From an uncultured Flavobacteriales bacterium (GTDB lineage Bacteria > Bacteroidota > Bacteroidia > Flavobacteriales_D > Crocinitomicaceae): DNA of 64,000 bases. The position numbers were made by a program, and so were the translations under genes. This document shows positions 21,032 through 54,208 of the stretch, piece by piece; position 1 is the stretch's first letter, and each line of letters begins with the position of its first letter. The stretch is from contig CALSTG010000001.1 of assembly GCA_943789205.1 (NCBI GenBank), positions 1,602,435-1,666,434 on the forward strand. The letters run 5' to 3'. The notes under the pieces were generated by a model. The model was not told where the DNA came from. It saw only the letters and a list, made by a program, of their open reading frames with translations, and made no database searches.

Positions 21032-21763
21032 ATGCAAAAGAAAGAATGGTTTGCTGAATGGTTTGATACAACATATTATCATATTCTTTACAAGAGTAGA
21101 GACAATCATGAAGCAAGAGTATTTATTAAGTCATTGGTGGGCCTCCTTCAATTACCAGAGGCTTCTTCAGTATTAGATTTAGCTTGCGGTAAAGGGAGAC
21201 ATTCGATAACTTTAAATGAATTCGGCTATAAAGTTCTTGGTGTGGATCTTTCTGCACAGAGTATCGCCCATGCAAATCAGTTCTCAAATTCTTCACTATC
21301 ATTTGCAGTTCAAGATATGAGAGAACCCATTCAATCGAAGAGATTTGATGCAGTTTTTAATCTTTTTACAAGTTTTGGTTATTTCTCGTCAAAACATGAA
21401 AATGAAAAGGTATGTCAAGCGATCGCTCAAATGCTCAATGCGGGTGGTAAATTGGTTATTGATTTTATGAATTCGCAAAAGGTTATTCAGAATTTAGTCC
21501 CTTCAGAATTAAAAAAGGTACAAGATATAGAGTTCGATATTAAACGAATATATTCAGGAACACATATCATTAAACAAATTTCTTTTCAAGACAAAGGACA
21601 GAAATTTGAATTTCAAGAACAAGTTCAGGCTATTGATTTATCAATGTTTAAGGAGCTTTTAGCACCTTATTTTACCATTGATTCTGTTTTTGGGTCCTTT
21701 GAATTGAACGAATATATTGCATCGGAATCAGATCGATTGATTATTATTGCAACGCGAAAATAA
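21032..21763 (+). CDS. Class I SAM-dependent methyltransferase
   Basis: 243 residues with a standard Rossmann methyltransferase core: motif I Leu-Asp-Leu-Ala-Cys-Gly-Lys-Gly-Arg-His near residues 48-57, an acidic Gly-Val-Asp-Leu-Ser near 70, and Asp-Ala-Val-Phe-Asn-Leu-Phe-Thr-Ser-Phe-Gly-Tyr near 105. This resembles a broadly conserved Bacteroidota family of small-molecule methyltransferases with unknown substrate. Its stop overlaps the ATG of the following ZIP transporter gene in a TAATG junction, so the two are coupled. It lies divergent from coaE with a 72-bp gap. Confidence 0.78.
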   Translation: MQKKEWFAEWFDTTYYHILYKSRDNHEARVFIKSLVGLLQLPEASSVLDLACGKGRHSITLNEFGYKVLGVDLSAQSIAHANQFSNSSLSFAVQDMREPIQSKRFDAVFNLFTSFGYFSSKHENEKVCQAIAQMLNAGGKLVIDFMNSQKVIQNLVPSELKKVQDIEFDIKRIYSGTHIIKQISFQDKGQKFEFQEQVQAIDLSMFKELLAPYFTIDSVFGSFELNEYIASESDRLIIIATRK

Positions 21764-22488
21764 TGAGTTTTTTAATCATACAAGTTTCCTTAATATTATC
21801 TGTCTTGCTCGGGGGCTTGATGGTTACTTATTTAAAATCTCAGCAAAAAGCACAGACCATAAAACTGACACTTGCATTTAGTGGTGGTTTTTTATTGGCA
21901 ATAATTTTTCAGCATTTACTTCCCGATTTATACCAACACGATTTTCATCAAGCTGGAATATACATCTTGATTGGGTTTTTGGTTCAATTAATCCTTGAGT
22001 ATTTTTCAGGTGGAATTGAACATGGTCATACGCATTCTTTGGCGGGGAACAGGGTGCCTATGACATTATTTGTTGCTTTATCGATACATTCTGTCATAGA
22101 GGGATTTCCTTTAGGTAATTCACATGGAGGACACTTTGCCCACGAAGGGCACAATCACGAATCCTTGTTTTGGGGAATTGTTTTTCATCAAATTCCTGTT
22201 TCAATAGCATTGATGTCTTTATTTGTCAATTCAACCATGGGTTTATTCAAGTCTTGGGTGTTTTTGATAACTTTTGCCTTGACAACGCCTTTAGGAGCAG
22301 TAATGGGCACACAGGTCAATCTAGAAGATTTAGGTCTGAATGTCCATGTGATTTTAGCAGTAGTTGTTGGTATGTTTCTTCATATATCTACAACAATTAT
22401 CTTTGAAACATCAGAGAACCATCGAGTAAATTTATTGAAGTTAATTTGCATTCTTTTGGGAGCAGGCTTAGCTATGTTGTTATCCTAG
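21763..22488 (+). CDS. ZIP-family divalent metal transporter
   Basis: 241 residues with about seven to eight hydrophobic helices. Helix IV carries His-Ser-Val-Ile-Glu-Gly-Phe (near 108-114) and helix V carries His-Gln-Ile-Pro (near 146-149), the paired metal-site motifs of ZIP transporters. Histidine-rich loops (His-Gly-His-Thr-His near 87 and Gly-Gly-His-Phe-Ala-His-Glu-Gly-His-Asn-His near 120) are typical metal-binding loops. It would import Zn2+ or Fe2+ across the inner membrane; the metal cannot be told from sequence. It begins in a TAATG junction with the upstream methyltransferase gene. Confidence 0.87.
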   Translation: MSFLIIQVSLILSVLLGGLMVTYLKSQQKAQTIKLTLAFSGGFLLAIIFQHLLPDLYQHDFHQAGIYILIGFLVQLILEYFSGGIEHGHTHSLAGNRVPMTLFVALSIHSVIEGFPLGNSHGGHFAHEGHNHESLFWGIVFHQIPVSIALMSLFVNSTMGLFKSWVFLITFALTTPLGAVMGTQVNLEDLGLNVHVILAVVVGMFLHISTTIIFETSENHRVNLLKLICILLGAGLAMLLS

Positions 22489-33303: not shown

Positions 33304-34467
33304 TCAGCTAAAAAATTTCTTATTTCCTTTTACCATTGTTCGAAGTAATGGGTTGGGTCGGTATCTATCTTCTCCGTAATAATCAAATAAGTCTTGGAGC
33401 CTATTTAAAATAACTTCAAGCCCTATTTCATCTCCCCACTGTAAAAGTCCTTTTGGATAATTTACACCTTTTGTCATTGCTAAATCAACATCCTTGGGAG
33501 TAGCTACTCCCATAAAGACAGCATCCACAGCCTCATTAATCAATAAGCATAATATACGATCTAAAATAGTTCGTCCAAGTTTCTCATCTTTATTGGCCTC
33601 CTTGTTTAGGGCTACATTTTCATAATGGTAGTAGCCTCGTCCAGATTTACGACCGTAAAAGCCAGCTTCGGCGTATCTTTTTTGAGTAAATGAAGGTTTA
33701 AATCGTGGGTCATAAAAGAAGGCTTGAAACACGGATTCTGTCACGGCAAAATTTACATCATTTCCGATATAATCCATTAATGTAAAGGGACCCATTTTAA
33801 ACCCCCCCAAATCTTTAAGTGCCCAATCGATTGTTGCAAAATCTGCTAAACCTTCTTCATAGATACGAAGGGCCTCACCGTAAAATGGGCGCGCAACTCG
33901 ATTTACAATGAAACCGGGCGTGTCTTTACATAACACGACAGTTTTACCCCATTCGGTTATTAGAGATTTTGAAATTTCAATTGTCTCTTTTGTAGTTTGA
34001 ATCGATGGAATGATTTCAACCAAAGGCATCAGCGGAGCAGGGTTGAAAAAATGAATACCAATAATTCTTTCAGCATTATGAAGTGCAGCACCTATAGATG
34101 CAATTGAAAGTGAGGAAGTATTTGAGGCAAGTATACAGTGTTCTGAAACAATGTCTTCAAGTTTTTTAAAAACTTCGTGCTTAATTTTTATATTTTCCAC
34201 AATGGCTTCAACCACAAGACCACATGGCCATAAGTCACCTATGTTTGTTGTAAACAGAATACGATCATTTATTTTCTTCCTTTCAGAATCAGAAATTCGT
34301 TCTTTTTCTACAAGCCTTTTCAGAACTTTATCAAGTCCTTCCTTTGCTTTAGATAGTTGGTTTTCGTTATGATCATGCACCACCACTTGGTGCTTATTTT
34401 GTGCCGCTATTTGAGCAATCCCAATGCCCATTGTGCCAGAACCAACTACGCCAATTGTTTCAATCAT
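33304..34467 (-). CDS. 3-hydroxyacyl-CoA dehydrogenase (PaaH-like)
   Basis: 387 residues. The NAD-binding loop Gly-Ser-Gly-Thr-Met-Gly is at about residues 8-13, followed by His-Phe-Phe-Asn-Pro-Ala-Pro-Leu-Met and Gly-Phe-Ile-Val-Asn-Arg of the family. A second C-terminal 3HCDH domain (about 290-380, Asn-Glu-Ala and Met-Thr-Lys-Gly-Val-Asn-Tyr-Pro) is present. It oxidises 3-hydroxyacyl-CoA to 3-ketoacyl-CoA. It overlaps the PaaG-like gene by 4 bp (ATGA), so the pair is coupled. In phenylacetate degradation PaaH acts on 3-hydroxyadipyl-CoA; that specific role is inferred from its partner. Confidence 0.85.
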   Translation of the reverse strand: MIETIGVVGSGTMGIGIAQIAAQNKHQVVVHDHNENQLSKAKEGLDKVLKRLVEKERISDSERKKINDRILFTTNIGDLWPCGLVVEAIVENIKIKHEVFKKLEDIVSEHCILASNTSSLSIASIGAALHNAERIIGIHFFNPAPLMPLVEIIPSIQTTKETIEISKSLITEWGKTVVLCKDTPGFIVNRVARPFYGEALRIYEEGLADFATIDWALKDLGGFKMGPFTLMDYIGNDVNFAVTESVFQAFFYDPRFKPSFTQKRYAEAGFYGRKSGRGYYHYENVALNKEANKDEKLGRTILDRILCLLINEAVDAVFMGVATPKDVDLAMTKGVNYPKGLLQWGDEIGLEVILNRLQDLFDYYGEDRYRPNPLLRTMVKGNKKFFS

Positions 34468-35237
34468 TTTCCTATGAATTTTGCAGGTCTTTTTTCGAGA
34501 AAAGCCTCGACTCCCTCATTAAAGTCTTGGGTTTGTCCTGCTTCATTTTGAAGCATCTCCTCAAGATTTAATTGGTTTTCTAATGTATTTGATAAACTTT
34601 CATTCACTGCTTTTTTAGTAAGCCCAAGAGCCCTTGTTGGCATTTTTGCAATTTTCTCCGAAAATGCAACCACAGTTTCAGTAAAGACTTCATCTTCAAC
34701 AGCTTTGTAAATCATTTGCATTTCTTCAGCTTCAGTTGCGCTTACCTTATCACCTGTCATCATAAGAGCCATTGCCTTCTGTGTTCCAATAATTCTTGGA
34801 AGAAAATAGGTGCCTCCTGAATCTGGAATTAATCCAATTTTAGAAAATGCCTGAATAAACGAGGCACTCTTTTTTGCAAAAACGATATCACAGGCTAATG
34901 CAATATTGGCTCCAGCTCCAGCAGCAACGCCATTGACAGCAGCAATGATAGGTTTTTGTATATTTCGGATGCGTTGAATTATAGGATTGTAATGCTCACC
35001 TACAATACTTTTTAATGCAGGACCTTCAGGGTCAATAACCTCGGCAAGATCCTGACCTGCGCAAAAAGCCCTACCATCACCTTGCAATACGATAGCTCTG
35101 ACCTCTGCGCTTTTTTCACATGCATCTAGGGCACTTTGAACGGCCATTGCCATTGTTTTATTGAAAGAATTAAAAACTTTTGGCCTATTAAAAGTTATGA
35201 AGAATACCCCATTTTTTTGTTCAGTAATGATTTCCAT
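34464..35237 (-). CDS. Enoyl-CoA hydratase/isomerase family protein, PaaG-like
   Basis: 257-residue crotonase-fold protein. The motifs Phe-Asn-Arg-Pro-Lys near 15, Gly-Arg-Ala-Phe-Cys-Ala-Gly-Gln-Asp-Leu near 55-64 and Gly-Val-Ala-Ala-Gly-Ala-Gly near 103 (oxyanion hole) are those of PaaG, the isomerase that opens the ring epoxide of phenylacetyl-CoA towards the oxepin. The C-terminal Phe-Leu-Glu-Lys-Arg-Pro also fits. A general enoyl-CoA hydratase role cannot be excluded. It lies first in a two-gene operon with the 3-hydroxyacyl-CoA dehydrogenase, 40 bp after the WYL regulator gene. No paaABCDE or paaK is in the window. Confidence 0.8.
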   Translation of the reverse strand: MEIITEQKNGVFFITFNRPKVFNSFNKTMAMAVQSALDACEKSAEVRAIVLQGDGRAFCAGQDLAEVIDPEGPALKSIVGEHYNPIIQRIRNIQKPIIAAVNGVAAGAGANIALACDIVFAKKSASFIQAFSKIGLIPDSGGTYFLPRIIGTQKAMALMMTGDKVSATEAEEMQMIYKAVEDEVFTETVVAFSEKIAKMPTRALGLTKKAVNESLSNTLENQLNLEEMLQNEAGQTQDFNEGVEAFLEKRPAKFIGK

Positions 35238-35277: not shown

Positions 35278-36294
35278 TTATTTATTTAAGGCATAAACCT
35301 TTTGCATAGACTTGATTCTGTGCACAATTAATTGTTTTAGTTCCTTAGGTTCTATAATTTCAATTTCACCACCATAGCTCAGCAATGTTCTGATTAATTC
35401 TTCGGACAATAAAAGCTTAAGGCTAAAAAAAGTTTCGCCTTTATCTGTTTCCTCAATGATTTCTTGAGATCTATGAATAGGTTGGCTTTTCAAGTACTTA
35501 GATGCAACTTCGCCTGCTCTAAGCTTTATTAAATGTGCATCGCCCTTGTAGCTCGTTATGCCCATTGCGTTTTTAAAATATTCTTCTGGATTAAAGTCCT
35601 GAGGTATATCTTGATGCTCATCTAATATTTTGGGTTCTTCCATTCTATCCAGAGCATAGGTACGAATATCTTTTCTATTGGAGTCATAGGAAATGAGGTA
35701 CCAACGTTTTTGGTATTCCTTAAGAAATAAAGGGGAAACTTTTCTAGGCTTACCAGCTCCTTTTAAAAAGCTTGTGTAAATAAACCAAACTTTGTTTTTT
35801 CTTTGAATCGCCTCAAGAAGTGTAGGTAGAAATTCATTACCTCCTACAGAAGCAGCTGCTTCGAACTGAATGTATTTAGACATCTCATTTTTCTCATCTC
35901 CAACTGAAACACGATCTACGATTTTATCAATGGCATTCCCAAACTCCTTAAAAAAAGGTGTCTCTTTGAACTGATGTAAGGTATCGACAGCATATTTTAT
36001 AGAACTCAATTCATCTTCAGTCAAAGGTATATCATTAATACTGTAGTCCGGGTTTTCATAATAATAACCTCTTTCTTTTTTGCTGTATTTAATGGGAGCA
36101 TCGTGCTCCATCTTCATATTGAAGAGATCTTTCTCAATAGTACTATTGCAAATATGAGCGCCATCAATTGAACCATATAATGATTCTTCGCAAGCTTCTC
36201 TGAGCTCTTGTTTTGACGGAAATGATTTGTATTTATTTCGAATCATTTTATCGATAATCCGAAAGCGAAGCAATGCATTCTTAATATGCGGCAT
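35278..36294 (-). CDS. WYL-domain transcriptional regulator
   Basis: 338 residues. An N-terminal winged-helix region (about 1-65, with Arg-Ile-Ile-Asp-Lys-Met-Ile and Ser-Lys-Gln-Glu-Leu) is followed by a WYL domain at about 170-225 (Trp-Tyr-Leu-Ile-Ser-Tyr-Asp and Tyr-Ala-Leu-Asp-Arg-Met) and a C-terminal WCX-like part. WYL domains sense nucleic acids or other ligands and often control defence or DNA-damage genes. Its ATG shares a TAATG junction with the upstream 472-residue protein gene, so it is translated with that operon and may regulate it. The ligand is unknown. Confidence 0.85.
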   Translation of the reverse strand: MPHIKNALLRFRIIDKMIRNKYKSFPSKQELREACEESLYGSIDGAHICNSTIEKDLFNMKMEHDAPIKYSKKERGYYYENPDYSINDIPLTEDELSSIKYAVDTLHQFKETPFFKEFGNAIDKIVDRVSVGDEKNEMSKYIQFEAAASVGGNEFLPTLLEAIQRKNKVWFIYTSFLKGAGKPRKVSPLFLKEYQKRWYLISYDSNRKDIRTYALDRMEEPKILDEHQDIPQDFNPEEYFKNAMGITSYKGDAHLIKLRAGEVASKYLKSQPIHRSQEIIEETDKGETFFSLKLLLSEELIRTLLSYGGEIEIIEPKELKQLIVHRIKSMQKVYALNK

Positions 36295-37712
36295 TATATT
36301 TTAAGTTCTTTTTTTTGGTAGCCAAACAATTCAAATGCTTTGATTGCCTTAGCAACTGATTCTGGAACATCCTCTTCCCAGCTTGACGCCCCCGCTCTGA
36401 TTTTGGAGAGTACATCATCTGACATGATATGAAGCAGTTTAGGGTTAAATTCTAAAATAGGCTTCATTTTATCATTTTCCCTCATGTATTCCAAAAGGCC
36501 TTTGAGGTTTGGTGCAATTTCAATATTATTTAGATCATAGATTTCACCATCTTCAACATTTAAGGCAGGATATACGTATAGTTTCATATTCGGACCAAAA
36601 CCGCGACCAAACGCCTCAAGTAAACCACCAGGGAGGTTGTCGTAATAACGTTCATCAAAAATGGTATTTAAATTATATACCCCGAGAATGACACCAATTA
36701 AATTCCCTCTTGAAATAGGAGCGAGGTACTCAACCATTTTATAATGCTTGAGATAATTTGATACCATTACCGTATAACCTAATGAAGAAAGGAGGTCTGC
36801 TCGGTCTAAAAAGTCTTGGACTGATATTTTGCCATCAGCAGTAAGATCTTTTAACGTCAACTCAAATACTACAGCCACGTTATCTTCTTTAACGTCATTT
36901 TCAGCGGAGAATGCTTTTCTTCCATTCTCAATCATATCTATGTGTACCTTTGTAACGGGTCGAAACCTTCCTCTTGTTAGTAAAATATTCTTTTTGTATA
37001 ACGCATTTGTTGGCTGAAGTACATTTTGAGCTAGGTCAAACATTGTTGCATCTGTAATTCCTCGTTTCACCAGGTTCAAAGCAATTACACGATTGTCAAT
37101 ATTACTAAAATCTGGTCCAGTGATACTTAGCATATCGATTTCGATACGATCTCTAGGAATTCTTTTTGTTAAGCCATCAAGGAATTCATCAATATCATTA
37201 TTTCTGTGATAGCAAGAGTGTATTAAATTTACCCCAAGAATCCCAAGAGCTTCTTGTTGCCCCTTGTGGCTATTGTCATGCATTTTTACATGCAAAACCA
37301 CGGTGTTAGGCTCTGCCTCTGGTTGGAGCTGAAAACGAATTCCAATCCAGCCCTTTCCTTGATTTGTTTTGTGGTAATTCAATGATTCTACGGTATTACA
37401 AAAAGCAAAGAATTTAGACTCCTTGTATTTATCAGGAAGTGTTTCTTTGAGATTTGTAAATTCCGTGTCGAGCATTATTTGAAGGCGCTCTTCACAAACA
37501 TATCGCTTCGTTTTTCCATACATGGAATCCGAAACTTTCATGTCGTATGCCGAATGACTAAAAGCTATAGTTCCGGAACTACCACCCGCCTTAAAAAAAT
37601 TAGCAGCAACCTCTTGTCCAGCACCGATTTCAGCAAAACAACCGTAAATATCAGATTGTAGATTTATTTTTAGTGCCTTTTCTTCTGTCGTTAGATGTCT
37701 TGTAGCTGGCAT
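36294..37712 (-). CDS. Conserved uncharacterised protein, often mislabelled as a TonB receptor or nucleotidyltransferase
   Basis: 472 residues, soluble and without a signal peptide. Conserved blocks include Ile-Tyr-Gly-Cys-Phe-Ala-Glu-Ile-Gly-Ala-Gly-Gln-Glu-Val-Ala near 23-37, Phe-Phe-Lys-Ala-Gly-Gly-Ser-Ser-Gly-Thr near 40-49, Leu-Gly-Val-Asn-Leu-Ile-His-Ser near 160 and Arg-Gly-Arg-Phe-Arg-Pro-Val-Thr near 248. I recall this as a widespread family with unreliable names in databases; nothing here looks like a beta-barrel or plug domain. The gene starts 2 bp after the MauG-like gene ends and its stop overlaps the WYL gene start, so it is the third gene of a four-gene operon. Function unknown. 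Confidence 0.7.
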   Translation of the reverse strand: MPATRHLTTEEKALKINLQSDIYGCFAEIGAGQEVAANFFKAGGSSGTIAFSHSAYDMKVSDSMYGKTKRYVCEERLQIMLDTEFTNLKETLPDKYKESKFFAFCNTVESLNYHKTNQGKGWIGIRFQLQPEAEPNTVVLHVKMHDNSHKGQQEALGILGVNLIHSCYHRNNDIDEFLDGLTKRIPRDRIEIDMLSITGPDFSNIDNRVIALNLVKRGITDATMFDLAQNVLQPTNALYKKNILLTRGRFRPVTKVHIDMIENGRKAFSAENDVKEDNVAVVFELTLKDLTADGKISVQDFLDRADLLSSLGYTVMVSNYLKHYKMVEYLAPISRGNLIGVILGVYNLNTIFDERYYDNLPGGLLEAFGRGFGPNMKLYVYPALNVEDGEIYDLNNIEIAPNLKGLLEYMRENDKMKPILEFNPKLLHIMSDDVLSKIRAGASSWEEDVPESVAKAIKAFELFGYQKKELKI

Positions 37713-37714
37713 GA

Positions 37715-38794
37715 TTAATTGAATGGATCTTTAAAATTAGGATTATTAATGAAAATGGTATCGTTTAAGGCCAGTAAGAATTGTTTTAACCACTCTTTTT
37801 CTAACTCATCGAGTTGCACGCCGCCTTGAGCGCCAAACTCTATCATTGGGTCTAGTGTTGCGCTCATTTGAATACCTGTTGAGTAATGCTCAATTACCTC
37901 CTCAAGTGAATTGAAACGTCCATCGTGCATGTAAGGTCCAGTACTTGACAGGTTGCGTAAAGAAGGTACTTTGAACTTGCCCAAATCAAGATCATTTTCA
38001 GTTACAAGGGCACGCCCAGCATCGCTAAAGGAGAGGTCTAAACCGTTATTACTAAATTTTTTGACCCGCATCAGCGGTCCATTATGACAGTGGAAACAGT
38101 CTGCACCATTCAGGCTCTTAAAAAGGTCATATCCGGCCCATGTTTCTGCCTCTATATTTTGAAGCACCTCATTTTCGCTATTGGAAAGAGAAAGTCCATT
38201 TTCATATTTATACATCACATCAAAGGTGGAAGAGCCAGATACAATAGTTCTGATAAACTGCCCTATGGCCTTTGCTACTTTCAAGGAGTCGATACCTTCC
38301 TCTCCAAAAGCGCTAAAGAATCTGTTTCGATAAGCCACATCTAGCTGTAATCGATTGACTGCTTCCTTCCATTCAAGGTGCATTTCAATTGGATTGGGGA
38401 CAGGTTCCAATATTTGAGCTTCAAGTGTTGACTTGCGTCCATCCCATGTGAAGAATTCATCCCAACCCATATTAAATAAAGGCATAGAGTTTCTTGTGCC
38501 TGGAATACCGTCTATTCCAACTGGAACTGCAACATTATCGGCGAACCCGCTTCCTATTTGATGGCAACTTGCACAGCTCATTGTTCCATCACCACTTAAC
38601 TTTGTTTCGTAAAACAAATGTCTCCCCAATTCCACACCTTCTTCAGTCATAGGGTTGTCTTGAGGGATTGTCATTTGAGGAAAATGCGAAGGGATATCTA
38701 TGGTATAGGGAGTTGGTAGAAAAGTGACCTTTTCTTTTCGACAAGCCGAAAATAAGATAATACTTACTATTAAAAAGAAAATCTTATGCATCAT
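37715..38794 (-). CDS. Dihaem cytochrome c peroxidase / MauG family lipoprotein (MbnH-like)
   Basis: 359 residues. The lipoprotein signal ends Leu-Phe-Ser-Ala-Cys near 14-18. Two c-type haem sites are present: CASCH at 74-78 and CFHCH at 233-237. A later Gly-Pro-Tyr-Met-His-Asp-Gly-Arg-Phe is the distal-ligand region of MauG/CCP enzymes; the Tyr may be the axial ligand as in MauG, but this needs alignment. MbnH, a member of this superfamily, converts a tryptophan of its partner MbnP to kynurenine. The MbnP-like gene directly upstream, with a 4-bp overlap, makes this the natural reading. A classical peroxidase role remains possible. Confidence 0.85.
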   Translation of the reverse strand: MMHKIFFLIVSIILFSACRKEKVTFLPTPYTIDIPSHFPQMTIPQDNPMTEEGVELGRHLFYETKLSGDGTMSCASCHQIGSGFADNVAVPVGIDGIPGTRNSMPLFNMGWDEFFTWDGRKSTLEAQILEPVPNPIEMHLEWKEAVNRLQLDVAYRNRFFSAFGEEGIDSLKVAKAIGQFIRTIVSGSSTFDVMYKYENGLSLSNSENEVLQNIEAETWAGYDLFKSLNGADCFHCHNGPLMRVKKFSNNGLDLSFSDAGRALVTENDLDLGKFKVPSLRNLSSTGPYMHDGRFNSLEEVIEHYSTGIQMSATLDPMIEFGAQGGVQLDELEKEWLKQFLLALNDTIFINNPNFKDPFN

Positions 38795-39585
38795 GGGACA
38801 CTGAGCGCATTAATGAAATTGGCCACTACCTTATCAGAAAGCATCTGTTGGCTATTATTGGAGTGTGTTAAAAATTCATCTTTGAGGTCTATAGAATTAC
38901 CTGCGGCAGCTAAAAAACTAGACAAATCTAATTGTAGGTTTAGGGTGTGTTCATTTTCTCCAGTTTGTTCCCAAGAAAGGTTTTCAAAGAAGCATGTTTG
39001 AAGCAAAGCATCTGTGCCAATATGAAAACTAAAATTATGGTTAAACACCTCGTTTGACAAGGTATCCACTTTACCTTCGATATTAATGAATATATAGCCT
39101 GTATTCCAACTCCAATGCATCGTTCCTGCATTTTCAATGTTTAAGTCACTTCCTGTGTCGAAAGCTGAGGGGTCACTATGGTTGTTAAAGGGGTCAACAC
39201 CTACGAGACCCTGTAGCTCAGTAAATGTATTGTAATCTTTAGCCGCACCTAGTAAAAATGTTCCCTTTTCTCTAAAGTCATATATTGAAGCCACATTGAT
39301 GGTGTCTTCTTGATTGTTTAATTGACTCAAAAAAAAGCTGATAGTTGTAAATTTCACACCGTATCCCTCAATAGTATTATAAACGGAATCTAAATATAAA
39401 TCCGTACCGTTGTAAATAGGAGTAATAAGAATTTTAATTGAATCAATTGCGCTGTAAGTGCAACTGCCATCGTTATGCGTTGCATTTGCATTATAGTTTT
39501 CAGCAGATTCATCTGTACAGCCCTTTTTTTTACATCCGCACAAGGTGCTAAAAACGATTAAAACAAGAAAAATATTCTTCATCAT
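38791..39585 (-). CDS. MbnP-like lipoprotein
   Basis: 264 residues. Lipoprotein signal with Thr-Leu-Cys-Gly-Cys near 14-18. Residues about 23-43 form a Cys-Thr-Asp...Asp-Gly-Ser-Cys motif common in marine Bacteroidota surface proteins. The MbnP-like domain runs from about 50 to the end: Phe-Leu-Ser-Gln-Leu near 85, then Met-His-Trp-Ser-Trp-Asn-Thr-Gly-Tyr (W158 and W160), and Phe-Ser-Phe-His-Ile-Gly (His188). MbnP proteins bind copper through a kynurenine made from tryptophan by MbnH; the two tryptophans here are candidates. It heads the operon with the MauG-like gene. The start could also be the second Met (39582). Confidence 0.8.
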   Translation of the reverse strand: MMKNIFLVLIVFSTLCGCKKKGCTDESAENYNANATHNDGSCTYSAIDSIKILITPIYNGTDLYLDSVYNTIEGYGVKFTTISFFLSQLNNQEDTINVASIYDFREKGTFLLGAAKDYNTFTELQGLVGVDPFNNHSDPSAFDTGSDLNIENAGTMHWSWNTGYIFINIEGKVDTLSNEVFNHNFSFHIGTDALLQTCFFENLSWEQTGENEHTLNLQLDLSSFLAAAGNSIDLKDEFLTHSNNSQQMLSDKVVANFINALSVP

Positions 39586-39654: not shown

Positions 39655-42600
39655 ATGCTCTCAACTATAGATAGAAAAAAGACACCCTTGTGCGTTTTAA
39701 GTGCTTCTGCAGGAAGTGGTAAAACCTTTCAGCTTGTTTTAGAGTACCTGTCTATCTTATTAGCTCCTAAAAGTGCTGCCAAATACAAAGGTATCGTTGC
39801 TATTACGTTTACAAATAAGGCATCAACTGAAATGAAAACAAGGATTATCGATGCTTTGTTTAATATTGCAAAATATGACCCATCTGAAAACGATACTAAA
39901 ACTGAATCAATTGTATCTGAGCTTGAAAAAATCATAAAATTAAAAGCACCTGAGCTTCGTCATAGAGCATCCAGTGCTTTGAAAGCTATTCTTCATGGAT
40001 ATGAAAACTTCAATGTCTCCACAATAGATAAATTCAACCTGAGATTGATTAAGTCATTTTCAAATGACCTCAACTTACCTGCAGAATTTGAAATTTCTTT
40101 AAATGAGAAAGAGGTTCTTGACGAAGTTATAGAGCTCATGTTGAGCAGCGTGGGCTCTGTGGATAACTTAAAACTCACGAAACTTGTAAAAAACTATGCA
40201 AAATCAAATTTTCAAGACGGAAGTCAATGGAATTTTAAAAGACATTTATTGGCATTTGCAGCAGCATTGAACAATGAAAAAAACAAGCCCTACATTGCAC
40301 TTCTTGAAACTTTTGATTTTGATGAAAAAGAGTTTGGATTAATTTTCAATGAACTTAAAGAGATTAATGCTAAGTTCTTGGAATTACATGATAAGCTAAA
40401 GGTTTATGTCGATGGTTTAAATCTGAACCCTGAAGACCTTCCAGGAAAGTCAAACACCACAAAATCACTGAATAAAATTCTGAGTTATCGAAAGTTTCCA
40501 ACTTTTAAAAGAGATGCTTCATTATTGACTCCTACTTTCTTTACGCTTTGCGAAAAGCCGGGTGATTCGAAGTCATTTACCTCTGAGCTCAAGCAACAAC
40601 TTTTAGCTCTAAATGCATTTCATGAGAATTATGCTCAGCGATACATGATGCTGTCAAAATACAAAGCCAATTTTTACAATATGGCTTTGCTAAAGTATGT
40701 TTCGGACGCTTTAAAAGACCTCAGAATTAAAACAAAAGTCATACGGATTTCCGAATTTAATGAATTGATAGGCTCGTTAGTTCAACAAGAAGATGCGCCT
40801 TATATTTATGAACGTTTCGGAACGCGGTATGAGCATTTTTTATTAGATGAATTTCAAGATACTTCTCGCCTTCAATGGCTGAATTTATTGCCTTTATTGC
40901 GTGAATCCATCTCTAATGGGAAACAAAATTTAATTGTTGGCGACCCAAAACAGTCTATATATAGATTTAATAATGGCTTGGCGGAGCAGTTTGTTGCCTT
41001 GCCATCCATATATAATCCAGAGTCGGATCCAAAAATTGAAAACCATTCAGAGTACTTTAGTCAGATGGGTGTTAAAAAGCCTCTTGAAATGAATTATCGA
41101 TCTTCTCCAGAGATTGTTAATTTCAATAATAGTTTTTTTAAAAATTTCAAGACCTCCTTACCATCAAAATTTGAGCCTTTTTATGATGCGGTGTCCCAAT
41201 TGCCTGCGGCAAATAAAATCGGCTTTGTTAAGATTGTTTCTGAAAAAAGAAAGCCTGAATCTGATGAAATGATTGAGGAGATTTATTCAATTATTAACGA
41301 ATCATTAGAGGATTCCTATGACCTTGGTGATATCTGTATATTAACGGATAAGAATGATCTTGGTGTTAAAATTGCAAATAAATTAACCAAGAAGGGAATT
41401 ACTGTATTTTCTCAAGAATCACTTTTAATTTCTAGAAACATGGAGGTGCGTCTGCTCATTGCTTTTCTGAAATGGAGAATGAAACCGACTGTGGACTTAA
41501 TGAAACGACAATTTGCTGAGCTTTATTTTAGAATGAATCAAACAGTAAATGACCCTTATTTTAATTACATAAAACCAGTAATCAATAAATCAGGAAAAAC
41601 CATAAAGATTTTTGACGATGATCAATTTTTAAGTGATTATTTTGGTGGTACTAAAAAGTTCTTTAAACCCTTTGAGAATTTGGTACAACTTGTTCAAGAA
41701 TTCATAAGATTAATGGGTTGGAAAGAGGTAGAAAATCCTTATTTACATCAATTTTCAGATTTAGTTTTTCAATTCCAATGCAATCGTCAATCTGATTTAT
41801 CTAAGTTCATTGAGTATTTCGAGGACAATAAGTCAAAGTTTGCATTGAAGATGCCTGAAAGTAAAGATGCTGTTCAAATAATGACAATTCATAAATCAAA
41901 GGGGTTAGAATTCCCGATTGTTATTATTCCAAAAGTTGATTTCAGTTTAAGTATTCATAATGAGTCTAAGTTTTTTGTTGAGTCTGACGGAAAGGTATTA
42001 TATACTTCGTTAAGCAAGTCAAATATTTTAGATGAAATACATGAGAAGGCTTTAGAAGAAGAAAATTTGATTCTGCTAGATAAATTGAATTTGCTTTATG
42101 TGGGGTTAACCAGACCCGAAAGACGATTGTATGTGTTTAATAGATTTAATAGAGCCTCTAATTTGGGCCATCGTTTTCATGATATTCTGATGCAAACCTT
42201 TGAATTAACCGAACAAGATGGAATATGTAATTATCAAATAGGCGAGCGCTCAAAGAAACTATCAAGCGGCGAGGATATGGGTGATTTTTATATTCCGAAA
42301 GAGGTGGTCAATGAGTCTTCAGTATTTCAAATTGCTTTTAAAGAGAGGTTAAAAGAGGATCATAGTTCACAAGAAGAACGATTATTTGGTGTTTATTTCC
42401 ATCTTCTAATGGCTAAAGTAGATACTTTTGAAACCATTGAGGGTGCGTTAGATGTTCTTATCGAGAATGGACTTGTTCAAATTTCAATGAAAGGGCAGTT
42501 GATTGATACTGCTCATGCTTTCTTTAAAGTTGCCTCAGAGAACAAGCTTTATATCGGGGTTGAGAAAGTACTAAATGAGCACCCAATACTTTTACCGACA

Positions 42601-42795
42601 GGTAAGATATTTATTCCAGATAAGGTGATCGTTCGTTCATCTGATATAATTGTGCTTGATTTTAAGACAGGAAAAGAAGAGTCAAAACATCAAAAGCAGA
42701 TTCTTAATTATAAACGTAAACTTGAGGATATATATAAGAAAAAAATCATTCCTATGCTTTACTATACTCAGTCTAATTACCTCAAGCAGGTTTAG
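39655..42795 (+). CDS. UvrD/RecB-like helicase-nuclease (AddA-type)
   Basis: 1,046 residues. Walker A Ser-Ala-Gly-Ser-Gly-Lys-Thr (K23) opens an SF1 helicase; Asp-Glu-Phe-Gln-Asp-Thr near 397-402 is the Walker B/motif II, Val-Gly-Asp-Pro-Lys-Gln-Ser-Ile-Tyr-Arg-Phe near 425 is motif III, and Thr-Ile-His-Lys-Ser-Lys-Gly-Leu-Glu-Phe and Leu-Tyr-Val-Gly-Leu-Thr-Arg are motifs V and VI. The C-terminal Ile-Pro-Asp-Lys...Val-Leu-Asp-Phe-Lys-Thr-Gly and following Gln-Ile-Leu-Asn-Tyr match a RecB-type PD-(D/E)XK nuclease. It is likely the helicase-nuclease subunit of a RecBCD/AddAB-type recombination complex. The usual AddB-like partner is not adjacent. Confidence 0.87.
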   Translation: MLSTIDRKKTPLCVLSASAGSGKTFQLVLEYLSILLAPKSAAKYKGIVAITFTNKASTEMKTRIIDALFNIAKYDPSENDTKTESIVSELEKIIKLKAPELRHRASSALKAILHGYENFNVSTIDKFNLRLIKSFSNDLNLPAEFEISLNEKEVLDEVIELMLSSVGSVDNLKLTKLVKNYAKSNFQDGSQWNFKRHLLAFAAALNNEKNKPYIALLETFDFDEKEFGLIFNELKEINAKFLELHDKLKVYVDGLNLNPEDLPGKSNTTKSLNKILSYRKFPTFKRDASLLTPTFFTLCEKPGDSKSFTSELKQQLLALNAFHENYAQRYMMLSKYKANFYNMALLKYVSDALKDLRIKTKVIRISEFNELIGSLVQQEDAPYIYERFGTRYEHFLLDEFQDTSRLQWLNLLPLLRESISNGKQNLIVGDPKQSIYRFNNGLAEQFVALPSIYNPESDPKIENHSEYFSQMGVKKPLEMNYRSSPEIVNFNNSFFKNFKTSLPSKFEPFYDAVSQLPAANKIGFVKIVSEKRKPESDEMIEEIYSIINESLEDSYDLGDICILTDKNDLGVKIANKLTKKGITVFSQESLLISRNMEVRLLIAFLKWRMKPTVDLMKRQFAELYFRMNQTVNDPYFNYIKPVINKSGKTIKIFDDDQFLSDYFGGTKKFFKPFENLVQLVQEFIRLMGWKEVENPYLHQFSDLVFQFQCNRQSDLSKFIEYFEDNKSKFALKMPESKDAVQIMTIHKSKGLEFPIVIIPKVDFSLSIHNESKFFVESDGKVLYTSLSKSNILDEIHEKALEEENLILLDKLNLLYVGLTRPERRLYVFNRFNRASNLGHRFHDILMQTFELTEQDGICNYQIGERSKKLSSGEDMGDFYIPKEVVNESSVFQIAFKERLKEDHSSQEERLFGVYFHLLMAKVDTFETIEGALDVLIENGLVQISMKGQLIDTAHAFFKVASENKLYIGVEKVLNEHPILLPTGKIFIPDKVIVRSSDIIVLDFKTGKEESKHQKQILNYKRKLEDIYKKKIIPMLYYTQSNYLKQV

Positions 42796-43468
42796 TCTTT
42801 TGTGCTACAGCCATCTTTAAAAAAGTATAAATGATGGGGTGGGGAATGTCTCTAGTAGAAGATATTTGAGGGCAGAAAGCACAGCTGATAAAGAATACGT
42901 GTTTTTTTAAGCTTATGATTTCCGGATCTTCAAATTGATTGATAGCTTCGATATCAATAAAGTTTGTTTTTAGCTGCTTTGTTAATTGCGGATAGATACT
43001 ATATCGAGATGACGTCAGTTCAATATTTGAAAAGTTTTCATAAAGCTTTTTAAATGCCTTGCTCTGAGGGGAAACAGTTAAACGCTCAAAGCTATTACCA
43101 GCAATTAAATTTTCAGATATCAGTTTTTCTTGGAAGGAGGTAAGCTGGTTAAAGGTAATTAGATATTCCAGAAAGAGCTTAAATCCCTCACCTGTGATAA
43201 GCACCGGTACTTTATTCTCCGTCAACTTTTTAAAAATTCCTGAAAGATAAAATGGATTTTGTATCGGGCCGGGAGCAATCCAAATACCGTCATACTGATC
43301 GAAATAAGTTGCTTTGTGTTTTAAGGCATCCGCTATTTTAATCCAATAATAATTAAGCTCTAATTCGAGGAAGTCTGCTGAGTGGTCTAATGATAAATTT
43401 GTCGCATGGTGGGCATTATAGGTGAAATTATAATCTCCGATAATGGCTATTTTGAGCGTGTCACTCAT
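42782..43468 (-). CDS. Glutamine-amidotransferase-like protein lacking the catalytic cysteine
   Basis: 228 residues resembling the free-standing proteins related to the CTP synthase C-terminal (class I amidotransferase) domain: Tyr-Asp-Gly-Ile-Trp-Ile-Ala-Pro-Gly near 59-67, Pro-Val-Leu-Ile-Thr-Gly-Glu-Gly-Phe near 88-96 and a C-terminal Pro-His-Pro-Ile-Ile. At the position of the catalytic cysteine (Gly-Thr-Cys-Gly-Gly in active members) there is Gly93, so glutaminase activity is unlikely. The C-terminal catalytic His is present in Pro-His-Pro. It probably acts as a binding or regulatory pseudoenzyme. It overlaps the 3' end of the helicase gene by 14 bp. Confidence 0.65.
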   Translation of the reverse strand: MSDTLKIAIIGDYNFTYNAHHATNLSLDHSADFLELELNYYWIKIADALKHKATYFDQYDGIWIAPGPIQNPFYLSGIFKKLTENKVPVLITGEGFKLFLEYLITFNQLTSFQEKLISENLIAGNSFERLTVSPQSKAFKKLYENFSNIELTSSRYSIYPQLTKQLKTNFIDIEAINQFEDPEIISLKKHVFFISCAFCPQISSTRDIPHPIIYTFLKMAVAQKTKPA

Positions 43469-51887: not shown

Positions 51888-53333
51888 ATGAGTACGGAAA
51901 ATAAAAATTGGGAATATGCGGATGCTGTCGAAGGTACAGGTCATATTAAGCTAAAAGAAAAATATGGCTTATACATTAATGGAGAGTGGGTTGCGCCTCG
52001 TTCCAAAACTTATTTTTCTTCAACAAATCCACATGATGAAGCACATTTAGCTGAGGTTGCGCAGGCAAATAAGCAGGATGTGGATGCAGCCGTTATTGCT
52101 GCTGAAAGGGCCTATCATGATGTTTGGTCTAAAATCACACCTGCCGAGCGTGGAAAATATATTTTTCGAATTGCAAGATTAATGCAAGAACAAGCGAAAG
52201 AATTGGCAGTCATAGAATCATTAGATTCTGGAAAGCCCATTAGAGAGGCTCGCGACATTGATATCCCATTGGCCTGCAACCATCTCTTTTATTATGCAGG
52301 CTGGGCAGATAAACTAGATTATGCTTTTCCCAATCAAAAGAAAGAACCATTGGGTGTGGCAGGTCAAATTATACCATGGAATTTTCCACTACTCATGGCG
52401 GCATGGAAAATTGCTCCTGCGCTTGCAACAGGTAATACAGTTGTGTTGAAGCCAGCAGAAACCACATCATTAACGGCTTTGAAGCTTGCCGAGATTATTG
52501 ATGAGGCAGGATTGCCTCCAGGAGTTGTAAATATAGTAACTGGTTTTGGAGATACGGGTGCCGCAATTGTAGCACATCCAAAGGTCTCAAAAGTTGCCTT
52601 CACGGGTTCAACCGCAGTGGGTAAACTTATTCAAAAGACAATTGCGGGTACAGATAAAAAAGCCACGTTGGAATTAGGTGGCAAATCTGCAAATATCATA
52701 TTTGATGACGCGCCTTTAGACCAGGCTGTTGAGGGTATTATTAATGGTATATTCTTTAATCAGGGTCATGTTTGTTGTGCGGGTTCTAGGTTATTTGTTC
52801 AGGAAAACATTGCAGATAAAGTTATTAGAAAGCTAAAGCATAGAATGCAATCGCTTCAAATAGGCAATCCACTAGATAAGAATACAGATATTGGCGCCAT
52901 TAATTCATCAGAACAACTCAAAACCATTAACAAGTACATTGATATTGGACGGAAAGAAGGTTCAGAGTGTTTTCAAGTTGACTGCGCACTTCCCAACAAA
53001 GGATATTATTGTAAACCAACTCTTTTTATCAATGTTGCTCAATCAAGTGTTTTGGCGCAAGAGGAGATTTTTGGTCCAGTATTGACCATTCAAACGTTTA
53101 GAACAATAGATGAGGTGATCCAAAAAGCAAACAATTCTCCCTATGGATTGGCTGCTGGTGTTTGGACAGACAAAGGCTCAAAAATATTTAATCTTACTTC
53201 CAAACTTAAAGCAGGAGTTGTATGGGCCAATACATATAATAAATTTGACCCAGCCTCTCCATTTGGAGGATATAAGGAAAGCGGTTTTGGTCGAGAAGGA
53301 GGATTACACGGTCTAGGGGCATATTTAAAATAA
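51888..53333 (+). CDS. Aldehyde dehydrogenase (deoC-linked)
   Basis: 481 residues, full-length NAD(P)-dependent ALDH. Trp-Asn-Phe-Pro near 164 binds the cofactor, E262 (Leu-Glu-Leu-Gly-Gly-Lys) is the general base, and C296 (Asn-Gln-Gly-His-Val-Cys-Cys) is the likely nucleophile. The C-terminal Glu-Ser-Gly-Phe-Gly-Arg-Glu-Gly-Gly is standard. It lies between deoC (2 bp) and a half-length ALDH (8 bp), so the three form an operon. Oxidation of acetaldehyde to acetate from deoxynucleoside breakdown is the reasonable role, by inference from position. Cytosolic. Confidence 0.9.
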   Translation: MSTENKNWEYADAVEGTGHIKLKEKYGLYINGEWVAPRSKTYFSSTNPHDEAHLAEVAQANKQDVDAAVIAAERAYHDVWSKITPAERGKYIFRIARLMQEQAKELAVIESLDSGKPIREARDIDIPLACNHLFYYAGWADKLDYAFPNQKKEPLGVAGQIIPWNFPLLMAAWKIAPALATGNTVVLKPAETTSLTALKLAEIIDEAGLPPGVVNIVTGFGDTGAAIVAHPKVSKVAFTGSTAVGKLIQKTIAGTDKKATLELGGKSANIIFDDAPLDQAVEGIINGIFFNQGHVCCAGSRLFVQENIADKVIRKLKHRMQSLQIGNPLDKNTDIGAINSSEQLKTINKYIDIGRKEGSECFQVDCALPNKGYYCKPTLFINVAQSSVLAQEEIFGPVLTIQTFRTIDEVIQKANNSPYGLAAGVWTDKGSKIFNLTSKLKAGVVWANTYNKFDPASPFGGYKESGFGREGGLHGLGAYLK

Positions 53334-53341
53334 TTTGAAAG

Positions 53342-54208
53342 ATGAGTAGATTAGAGGTGTTAAAAACATACAAGATCTTTATTGGCGGTAAATTCCCTAG
53401 AACGGAATCTGGCAGGTATTATAAAGCTGTAAATTCCAAAGGAGTTCCTGTTGCAAATATTTGCTTAAGCTCAAGAAAGGACGTTAGAAATGCAGTGCAA
53501 ATTGCTAGAAAAGCTCAAGGTCCATGGCAAGAACGATCAGCCTTCAATCGAGGTCAGATTTTATATAGAATTGCAGAAATCCTGGAAGGAAGAAGTAGTC
53601 AATTTGTTGAGGAACTCATGCTTCAGGATTACTCCAAAATTAATGCTACAAAAGAGGTGGAAGCCGCAATTGATAGAATTGTATATTATGCAGGGTGGTG
53701 CGATAAATTCAATCAAGTTTCAAGTTCCGTAAACCCTGTAAGTTCCTCTCATTTTAATTTTTCAACAAATGAGCCCGTTGGCCTTGTTGGATTGCTTTTG
53801 CCTGAATCTTCCTCATTGCTGACCTTAGTTTCTTATTTGATGCCAATTATTGCGGGTGGGAATTCATGTGTTTTAATTGCTTCAGAGAGATTCCCTTTAA
53901 CTGCAATAACATTTGCAGAAGTATTAAATACCTCAGATGTTCCAGGGGGAGTAGTTAATATTTTGACAGGTGCTGTTGCTGAGCTTTGGTCACCTTTATC
54001 AACTCATATGGATGTTAATGCGCTATCTGTTGATTTAAAAAGTCCATATCTAAAGGATATTCAATTGGCAGCTGTTGAAAATTTAAAACGCGTTATGTGC
54101 ATGCATTCAGCAGATGAACAAGGTTTGGTAAACATTACAGATTTTCAAGAGCTGAAGACGACTTGGCACCCAATAGAAAATATTGGAGGCGCATCAAACT
54201 CTTACTAA
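53342..54208 (+). CDS. Half-length aldehyde dehydrogenase homologue without catalytic residues
   Basis: 288 residues aligning only with the N-terminal, cofactor-binding half of ALDH: Ile-Phe-Ile-Gly-Gly-Lys-Phe near 12-18, Trp-Gln-Glu-Arg-Ser-Ala near 62, Tyr-Tyr-Ala-Gly-Trp-Cys-Asp-Lys near 114, Gly-Gly-Asn-Ser near 170 and Pro-Gly-Gly-Val-Val-Asn near 200. The catalytic Cys and Glu and the whole C-terminal catalytic domain are missing. The frame is clean, with a normal composition and a proper stop, so it looks like a maintained short protein rather than a fragment. It could form mixed oligomers with the full ALDH. It overlaps the next gene by 4 bp. Confidence 0.8.
   Translation: MSRLEVLKTYKIFIGGKFPRTESGRYYKAVNSKGVPVANICLSSRKDVRNAVQIARKAQGPWQERSAFNRGQILYRIAEILEGRSSQFVEELMLQDYSKINATKEVEAAIDRIVYYAGWCDKFNQVSSSVNPVSSSHFNFSTNEPVGLVGLLLPESSSLLTLVSYLMPIIAGGNSCVLIASERFPLTAITFAEVLNTSDVPGGVVNILTGAVAELWSPLSTHMDVNALSVDLKSPYLKDIQLAAVENLKRVMCMHSADEQGLVNITDFQELKTTWHPIENIGGASNSY

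Follow-up and report, generated by a model that had tools for sequence, protein, structure and literature searches.

A divergent MbnP/MbnH-type lipoprotein pair and a predicted PncC-like/NadD-like fusion protein in a Crocinitomicaceae genome

In Methylosinus trichosporium OB3b, the copper-binding protein MbnP (7l6g) is partnered by a di-haem enzyme (6e1c, which we take to be the MbnH structure), and the first Trp of its WxW motif is said, in a PNAS abstract of 2021, to be converted to kynurenine. Likewise, MopE/SACCP and the CorA/CorB couple of methanotrophs combine a Trp-derived kynurenine as Cu(I) ligand with a di-haem partner, and for CorA a copper site built from Kyn62, H64 and H114 has been described (PMC3912023). 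MbnPH-like genes occur in other copper-related operons (PMC9426467). Here we analyse a stretch of 64,000 nucleotides (the window; GCA_943789205.1, contig CALSTG010000001.1, positions 1,602,435 to 1,666,434) from an uncultured bacterium of the family Crocinitomicaceae, in which the genes of an MbnP-like lipoprotein and an MbnH/MauG-family di-haem lipoprotein are followed by those of a 472-residue protein (P472) and a WYL-domain regulator. The two lipoproteins probably constitute a dedicated substrate and enzyme pair of the MbnP/MbnH type, in which W158 of the MbnP would be oxidised to kynurenine to provide a Cu(I) site at the cell envelope, P472 and the WYL regulator being inherited neighbours.

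38791..39585, minus strand: MbnP-like lipoprotein gene (264 residues; PF20243 match and fold)
37715..38794, minus strand: MbnH/MauG-family di-haem lipoprotein gene (359 residues; CCP_MauG match)
36294..37712, minus strand: P472 gene (predicted CinA-C/PncC-like and NadD-like fusion)
35278..36294, minus strand: WYL-domain regulator gene (338 residues; WYL 64.8 bits, WCX 42.2 bits)

An earlier note on this DNA had taken these four genes as a stand-alone copper-handling or protein-oxidation system with its own control. All four reading frames are present on the minus strand as it had described them, including the 4-bp overlap of the MbnP and MauG-like genes; the latter is separated from P472 by 2 bp, and P472 overlaps the WYL gene by 1 bp.

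The MbnP-like protein and its di-haem enzyme

MbnP-domain similarity, whose absence the earlier note had named beforehand as speaking against its proposal, was found, and the identity of the first lipoprotein as an MbnP is borne out by profile as well as fold. The protein matches Pfam PF20243 with 74.2 bits, above the gathering cut-off of 27 (E 1.6e-20; in profile and Foldseek searches a match is taken at E <= 0.001), and its AlphaFold2 model (12 sequences; mean predicted local distance difference test score, pLDDT, 87.9) retrieves with Foldseek only the six chains of 7l6g, the M. trichosporium MbnP. Among 1000 chains compared with the model, 7l6g_D aligned over 196 residues with a Z-score of 16.7 and a root-mean-square deviation (rmsd) of 2.8, the runner-up reaching a Z-score of 3.8. 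Chains of MopE or CorA are in neither of these fold lists (Foldseek; 1000 chains), and a relation to them may nevertheless exist.

39106..39114, minus strand: WxW motif W158-S159-W160, W158 being the predicted kynurenine
39022..39024, minus strand: H188, candidate copper ligand (His in 116 of 122 aligned MbnPs)
38863..38865, minus strand: H241, candidate copper ligand (His in 87 of 122, Met in 19 of 122)
39532..39543, minus strand: lipobox L15-C16-G17-C18 (C18 conserved by 90% or more of 30 relatives)
39454..39522, minus strand: linker GCTDxxAxNYNxxATxxDGSC after the lipobox (similar stretches in few relatives: L094, L106, L118)

The protein has Trp at positions 158, 160 and 205. Among the 122 aligned family MbnPs (of 123, one being removed by a length filter), position 158 is Trp in 118 and position 160 in 114, and when MbnPs of the type of this locus are aligned together with canonical ones, W158, W160 and H188 do not vary. 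Which of the two motif Trp residues would be modified had been posed as a question; W158 is predicted, from the fold and from the alignment of the WxW motif with 7l6g, in which a profile of canonical and locus-type MbnPs places the WNW of 7l6g on W158-S159-W160 (a weak alignment, E 0.64). Cys is found at positions 16, 18, 23, 42 and 198 only, one of these within the MbnP domain. The proposal that both proteins are lipid-anchored agrees with their signal peptides, which are of the lipoprotein type with a C18 in both.

The assignment of the second protein to the di-haem enzymes of the MauG family likewise stands, as it matches CCP_MauG in Pfam with 167.3 bits (cut-off 25.6, E 4.7e-49), has both CxxCH motifs and finds 6e1c (‘Di-heme enzyme’, E 5e-44) as its best match and nearest solved relative in the PDB.

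38561..38575, minus strand: first haem motif CASCH, residues 74-78 (C74, C77 and H78 in 92 of 92 paired MbnHs)
38084..38098, minus strand: second haem motif CFHCH, residues 233-237 (C233, C236 and H237 in 92 of 92 paired MbnHs)
37883..37885, minus strand: Y304, predicted distal haem ligand position (Tyr in 88 of 92 paired MbnHs)
38444..38446, minus strand: W117, aligned with a Trp of 6e1c and other chains of bacterial cytochrome c peroxidases (bCcPs)

A Tyr at the position of Y304 is presumably the distal haem ligand, as in the MauG/MbnH type. The expectation of a Tyr at this place is supported by the alignment, where Y304 coincides with the Tyr of 6e1c, the corresponding residue of 3o5c being Met. 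At another locus of the family (L094:8926-12809), two MbnPs and two MbnHs stand in tandem upstream of the P472 gene, and one of these enzymes has Leu instead of Tyr.

Both proteins are thus recognised at the level of family and fold, and at E <= 0.001 the NCBIfam models TIGR04052 (MbnP_like_WxW) and TIGR04039 match 27 of 30 MbnPs and 28 of 28 enzymes, respectively, in the alignments of the type of this locus. Because the curated cut-offs of these two models are missed by the proteins of the window (see below), the pair is filed as a divergent variant under PF20243 and the MauG superfamily and not under the NCBI equivalogs; it belongs firmly to a known kind, though as a divergent representative.

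Pairing, co-divergence and the putative copper site

MbnP was found in 58 of 60 family genomes and in 31 of the 118 genomes of the phylum sample. An MbnH follows downstream within 1500 bp in 96 of 123 distinct MbnPs, the spacing being mostly within about 15 bp, and three of the 27 without such a partner lie at contig edges; three MbnP matches that are broken or reach a contig edge (G018 C5, G055 C87, G036 C176) were not taken as separate loci. Unpaired MbnPs lose the WxW motif more often, as it is kept at the motif columns by 18 of 27 unpaired versus 92 of 95 paired proteins. The second Trp of the motif is missing in 9 of 27 unpaired versus 3 of 95 paired MbnPs (e.g. L118, L210, L225, which has a WSSP form, L215, L259, L260 and L261).

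Distances between MbnPs and between their MbnHs correlate with r 0.80 over the 91 pairs from 49 genomes that were left after gap and length filters. When partners were exchanged solely within the 28 genomes with more than one pair (70 pairs in all), a control which removes the species tree, the mean correlation was 0.16 with a maximum of 0.36, and none of 1000 shuffles reached r 0.80. As the co-divergence survives this control, each MbnP has its own enzyme, and within one genome it yields a prediction of the MbnP on which a given enzyme acts. Three subtypes diverge together in this manner: the type of this locus (245-273 residues), the canonical type and a longer one (315-339 residues). With these data, an ordinary di-haem cytochrome c peroxidase placed beside a lipoprotein by chance is a highly improbable reading of the enzyme; bCcPs such as 3o5c and 1iqc do match it with E 1e-36 or better, but 6e1c is the best match, the ligand position carries Tyr and not Met, and coupling to MbnP (96 of 123 cases) is accompanied by strong co-divergence.

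Other MbnP/MbnH pairs of Bacteroidota likewise consist of these two genes in this order, among them a second pair of the same genome (L001:1441-3365, contig C1 near 1312126), whose MbnP has the motif WGW. This second MbnP extends C-terminally beyond the MbnP domain, and no Pfam or NCBIfam model matches the extension; a type IX secretion tail, read there by eye, was dropped, no model of either collection matching at E <= 0.001.

The statement that methanobactin genes are lacking nearby is supported by a search of the whole genome (94.85% complete), in which the MbnB family (PF05114) has no match at E <= 0.001, and no copper gene is named in the window among the 56 of 63 open reading frames of at least 110 residues that were scanned with Pfam. 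The independence from methanobactin is, however, not as unusual as had been suggested, since MbnP is so widespread in the family and conservation of the MbnP/MbnH pair far beyond methanobactin producers has been in print since 2013 (PMC3621798). Of the scanned window genes, a single one, for a ZIP-family protein (21763-22488), is named as a metal transporter.

Compared with OB3b, the pair shares the MbnP fold, the WxW motif, the adjacent di-haem enzyme and its aligned Tyr; it differs by the predicted lipid anchors and by the missing methanobactin locus. In the proposed mechanism, both proteins would leave the cytoplasm and be held in the outer membrane by their lipid anchors, where the di-haem enzyme would reach a high-valent state and oxidise W158 of MbnP to kynurenine. 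Kyn158, H188 and probably H241 could then form a Cu(I) site, with which the lipoprotein may capture or buffer copper at the cell envelope, P472 and the WYL regulator possibly sharing a transcript with the pair without being required for it. As an analogue, the CorA site composed of a kynurenine and two His residues (PMC3912023) may serve as a model for the proposed Kyn158/H188/H241 site. The arrangement would not be identical, as CorA has a His two residues after the modified Trp, where this MbnP has W160, so that the Kyn-x-His pattern is absent. To study how kynurenine-dependent copper sites work in bacteria other than methanotrophs, a lipid-anchored pair in a genome without an MbnB-family match and with a paralogous pair would be a simple model.

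Several observations weigh against this proposal. The MbnP reaches 30.4 bits with TIGR04052, an equivalog model with a curated cut-off of 140, and the enzyme 233.2 bits with TIGR04039, its best NCBIfam model, of the type hypoth_equivalog with a cut-off of 362.85. The MbnP is 18% identical to 7l6g over the aligned part, and the four-Cys motif which the molecule name of 7l6g indicates is absent from its sequence. Searches of solved structures with the single protein (phmmer) and with the locus-type profile yielded chance hits only, and the mixed profile of canonical and locus-type MbnPs finds 7l6g as its sole PDB hit at E 0.64; because this link is weak, the mapping to the modified Trp draws on motif and fold. 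The role of H188 and H241 as copper ligands is a guess from conservation, position 241 being Met in 19 of 122 proteins. W117 of the enzyme is Trp in only 71 of 92 paired MbnHs, and the scanned window genes include none named for copper.

These points leave room for W158 being oxidised for another purpose, such as redox signalling, peroxide defence or another metal, which we consider unlikely. It would suit an enzyme of the bCcP/MauG superfamily, a surrounding without copper genes in the scanned part and two proteins well under the NCBI equivalog cut-offs; the fold, in contrast, is that of a copper-binding MbnP, W158 and H188 are kept, and the co-divergence speaks for MbnP being a dedicated substrate of the enzyme. 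We retain the kynurenine-dependent copper pair as the probable interpretation.

Gene order around P472

The tight spacing which had suggested an operon running without gaps to the WYL gene is present, but the run does not end there; after 40 bp an enoyl-CoA hydratase gene follows on the same strand and then, with a 4-bp overlap, a 3-hydroxyacyl-CoA dehydrogenase gene. As these two genes continue the run, the right-hand boundary of the ‘operon’ at the WYL gene is arbitrary.

34464..35237, minus strand: enoyl-CoA hydratase gene (ECH_1, E 3.3e-68), which follows WYL in relatives
33304..34467, minus strand: 3-hydroxyacyl-CoA dehydrogenase gene (3HCDH_N, E 2.3e-60)
39655..42795, plus strand: RecB/AddA-like helicase gene (UvrD-helicase, E 5.2e-35), divergent from MbnP and at the left end of the inherited block

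The neighbourhoods of P472 were surveyed at 53 family loci, that of the window excluded. An MbnH gene is located within 1 kb upstream of P472 in 24 of 51 informative loci, with gaps of -1 to 535 bp, and 34 of 52 loci have a WYL relative no more than 3 kb downstream. The order MbnP-MbnH-P472-WYL across genera, these frequencies and the short spacing in the window would suit a single copper-handling or protein-oxidation module, with WYL as its regulator and P472 in a cytoplasmic function, and this is how the earlier note had understood the locus. However, beside P472 the presence of WYL does not depend on that of MbnH: where MbnH is present, 11 of 24 loci have WYL within 200 bp, and where it is absent, 9 of 26 (Fisher p 0.56); for a distance of 3 kb the counts are 15 of 24 versus 17 of 26 (Fisher p 1.0). 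Two loci, L115:6399-9296 and L116:6257-9121, have contiguous MbnP-MbnH-WYL genes in genomes without P472. WYL rather goes with the enoyl-CoA hydratase, which follows it in 21 of 34 loci with WYL versus none of 15 informative loci without, and the canonical relatives of P472 belong to NAD metabolism and not to copper.

The named P472 loci are the best 80 of at least 582 confirmed, several with short flanks; the nearest named relatives among them are Crocinitomicaceae, Fluviicola and Brumimicrobium, and two loci are from Planctomycetota (L191, L193). Among these best 80, MbnH stands beside P472 in 12 of the 15 loci with at least 61% identity, whereas neither MbnH nor a WYL relative was found in any of the stretches examined for the other 65; one of the latter, L160, has an MbnP about 3.6 kb from P472. 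P472 occurs together with MbnP in 12 further genomes of the class that do not belong to the family; the two genes come closest to each other in G138, at about 12 kb, and in the others they are far apart or on different contigs, as compared by hand. The stand-alone system of four genes with its own control is thus not supported, given the independence of MbnH and WYL, L115 and L116 and the 65 more distant loci, and we regard such a module as improbable.

Chance as the reason for the vicinity, the alternative named beforehand, does not fully apply either, because many genera of the family share the order; instead of a functional unit, it reflects inheritance. Of 22 family loci, 18 have a divergent helicase gene directly before MbnP; where MbnPH is missing, the helicase gene stands directly upstream of P472 at five loci. 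The gene order is thus an inherited block at family level, which also holds the helicase and enoyl-CoA hydratase genes. A functional link of P472 or WYL to the pair is possible but not indicated; in favour of some link between MbnH and P472 speaks that the two genes are neighbours in 24 of 51 informative loci. P472 is probably an unrelated neighbour of the copper pair. In 17 of the best 80 named loci (among L157-L201), a divergent gene of one family, metallo-beta-lactamase-like by eye, lies near P472.

Predicted folds and remade sites of P472

P472 matches no Pfam or NCBIfam family at E <= 0.001 and sequence search found no solved relative, nor were relatives found in plasmid or phage records. 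It is present in 20 of the 118 genomes of the phylum sample, all within the 29 of the class Bacteroidia (20 of 29, where unlisted negatives are taken as outside the class), and its identity across the family is 62-75%, apart from one partial copy at 64%. The predicted model (pLDDT 89.3) suggests two folds in one chain, each known from an enzyme of its own.

37188..37700, minus strand: residues 5-175, predicted CinA-C/PncC fold (6l19_A, Z 16.4, rmsd 2.6, 152 of 164 aligned)
36315..36998, minus strand: residues 239-466, predicted nicotinamide mononucleotide/nicotinic acid mononucleotide (NMN/NaMN) adenylyltransferase fold (1nup_A, Z 16.4, rmsd 3.6, 201 of 213 aligned)
37614..37631, minus strand: EIGAGQ (28-33), replacing ESCTGG of PncC (48 of 48 sequences; register from a weak alignment)
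36942..36971, minus strand: GRFRPVTKVH (248-257), replacing GxFxPxHxGH of NadD (alignment with NadD)

P472 is accordingly predicted, on its model, to fuse a CinA-C/PncC fold with an NMN/NaMN adenylyltransferase fold, the active sites of both being altered. The active site of PncC is described as comprising Glu30, Ser31, Cys32, Thr33, Gly46, Ser48, Tyr58 and the general base Lys63 (PMC5384747, PMC3855486, PMC4246079). In the register of the weak alignment, these correspond to E28, I29, G30, A31, G44, S46, Y56 and S61 of P472, which would keep the residues on the phosphate side (Glu, Gly, Ser, Tyr) and replace the catalytic ones; I29, G30, A31 and S61, in place of Ser31, Cys32, Thr33 and Lys63, are invariant in 48 of 48 sequences. 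On the side of NadD, HxGH has become TxVH/N, the last residue being His in 16 and Asn in 27 of 48 sequences, and the SSxxxR motif is lost including its Arg. Since profile-profile scores are weak, with E 0.0059 against NadD for the whole protein (Probab 6), E 0.0032 for its C-terminal part (Probab 10) and E 0.054 against CinA-C (Probab 1), the shared folds are claimed from the predicted model, and it is weak alignments that give the residue register; against whole CinA, no sensible match was obtained.

P472 was rejected as the NadD or PncC of the cell, as a canonical NadD is present in 29 of 30 and CinA/PncC in 30 of 30 family genomes, both also in its own, and TIGR00482 (NadD) has no match at the place of P472. 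The two predicted folds match the consecutive steps from NMN to nicotinic acid adenine dinucleotide (NaAD), which suggests a nucleotide sensor or a re-purposed enzyme. As a tentative idea that we hold possible rather than probable, P472 may be an undescribed protein of Bacteroidia in which a PncC-like and a NadD-like part in pathway order, with remade invariant sites, serve as a sensor of pyridine nucleotides (NMN, NaMN or NAD) or perform new nucleotide chemistry. Known PncC fusions are with COG1058 (PMC3680494, PMC3855486), whereas P472 would join PncC to a NadD-like domain, and no description of a PncC-NadD fusion was recognised in the literature searched, which was covered in part. A conserved, single-copy and unannotated protein of many Bacteroidia genomes thereby gains a concrete structural hypothesis.

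Elsewhere in the window, an Rfam scan gave 0 matches. A 228-residue protein (42782-43468) resembles the C-terminal region of CTP synthase, with 94.7 bits against an NCBI cut-off of 260. Next to a DeoC-type aldolase, the stretch 51888-54208 encodes a complete aldehyde dehydrogenase and, after it, a shortened one of 288 residues that covers positions 15-233 of the 461 in the profile.

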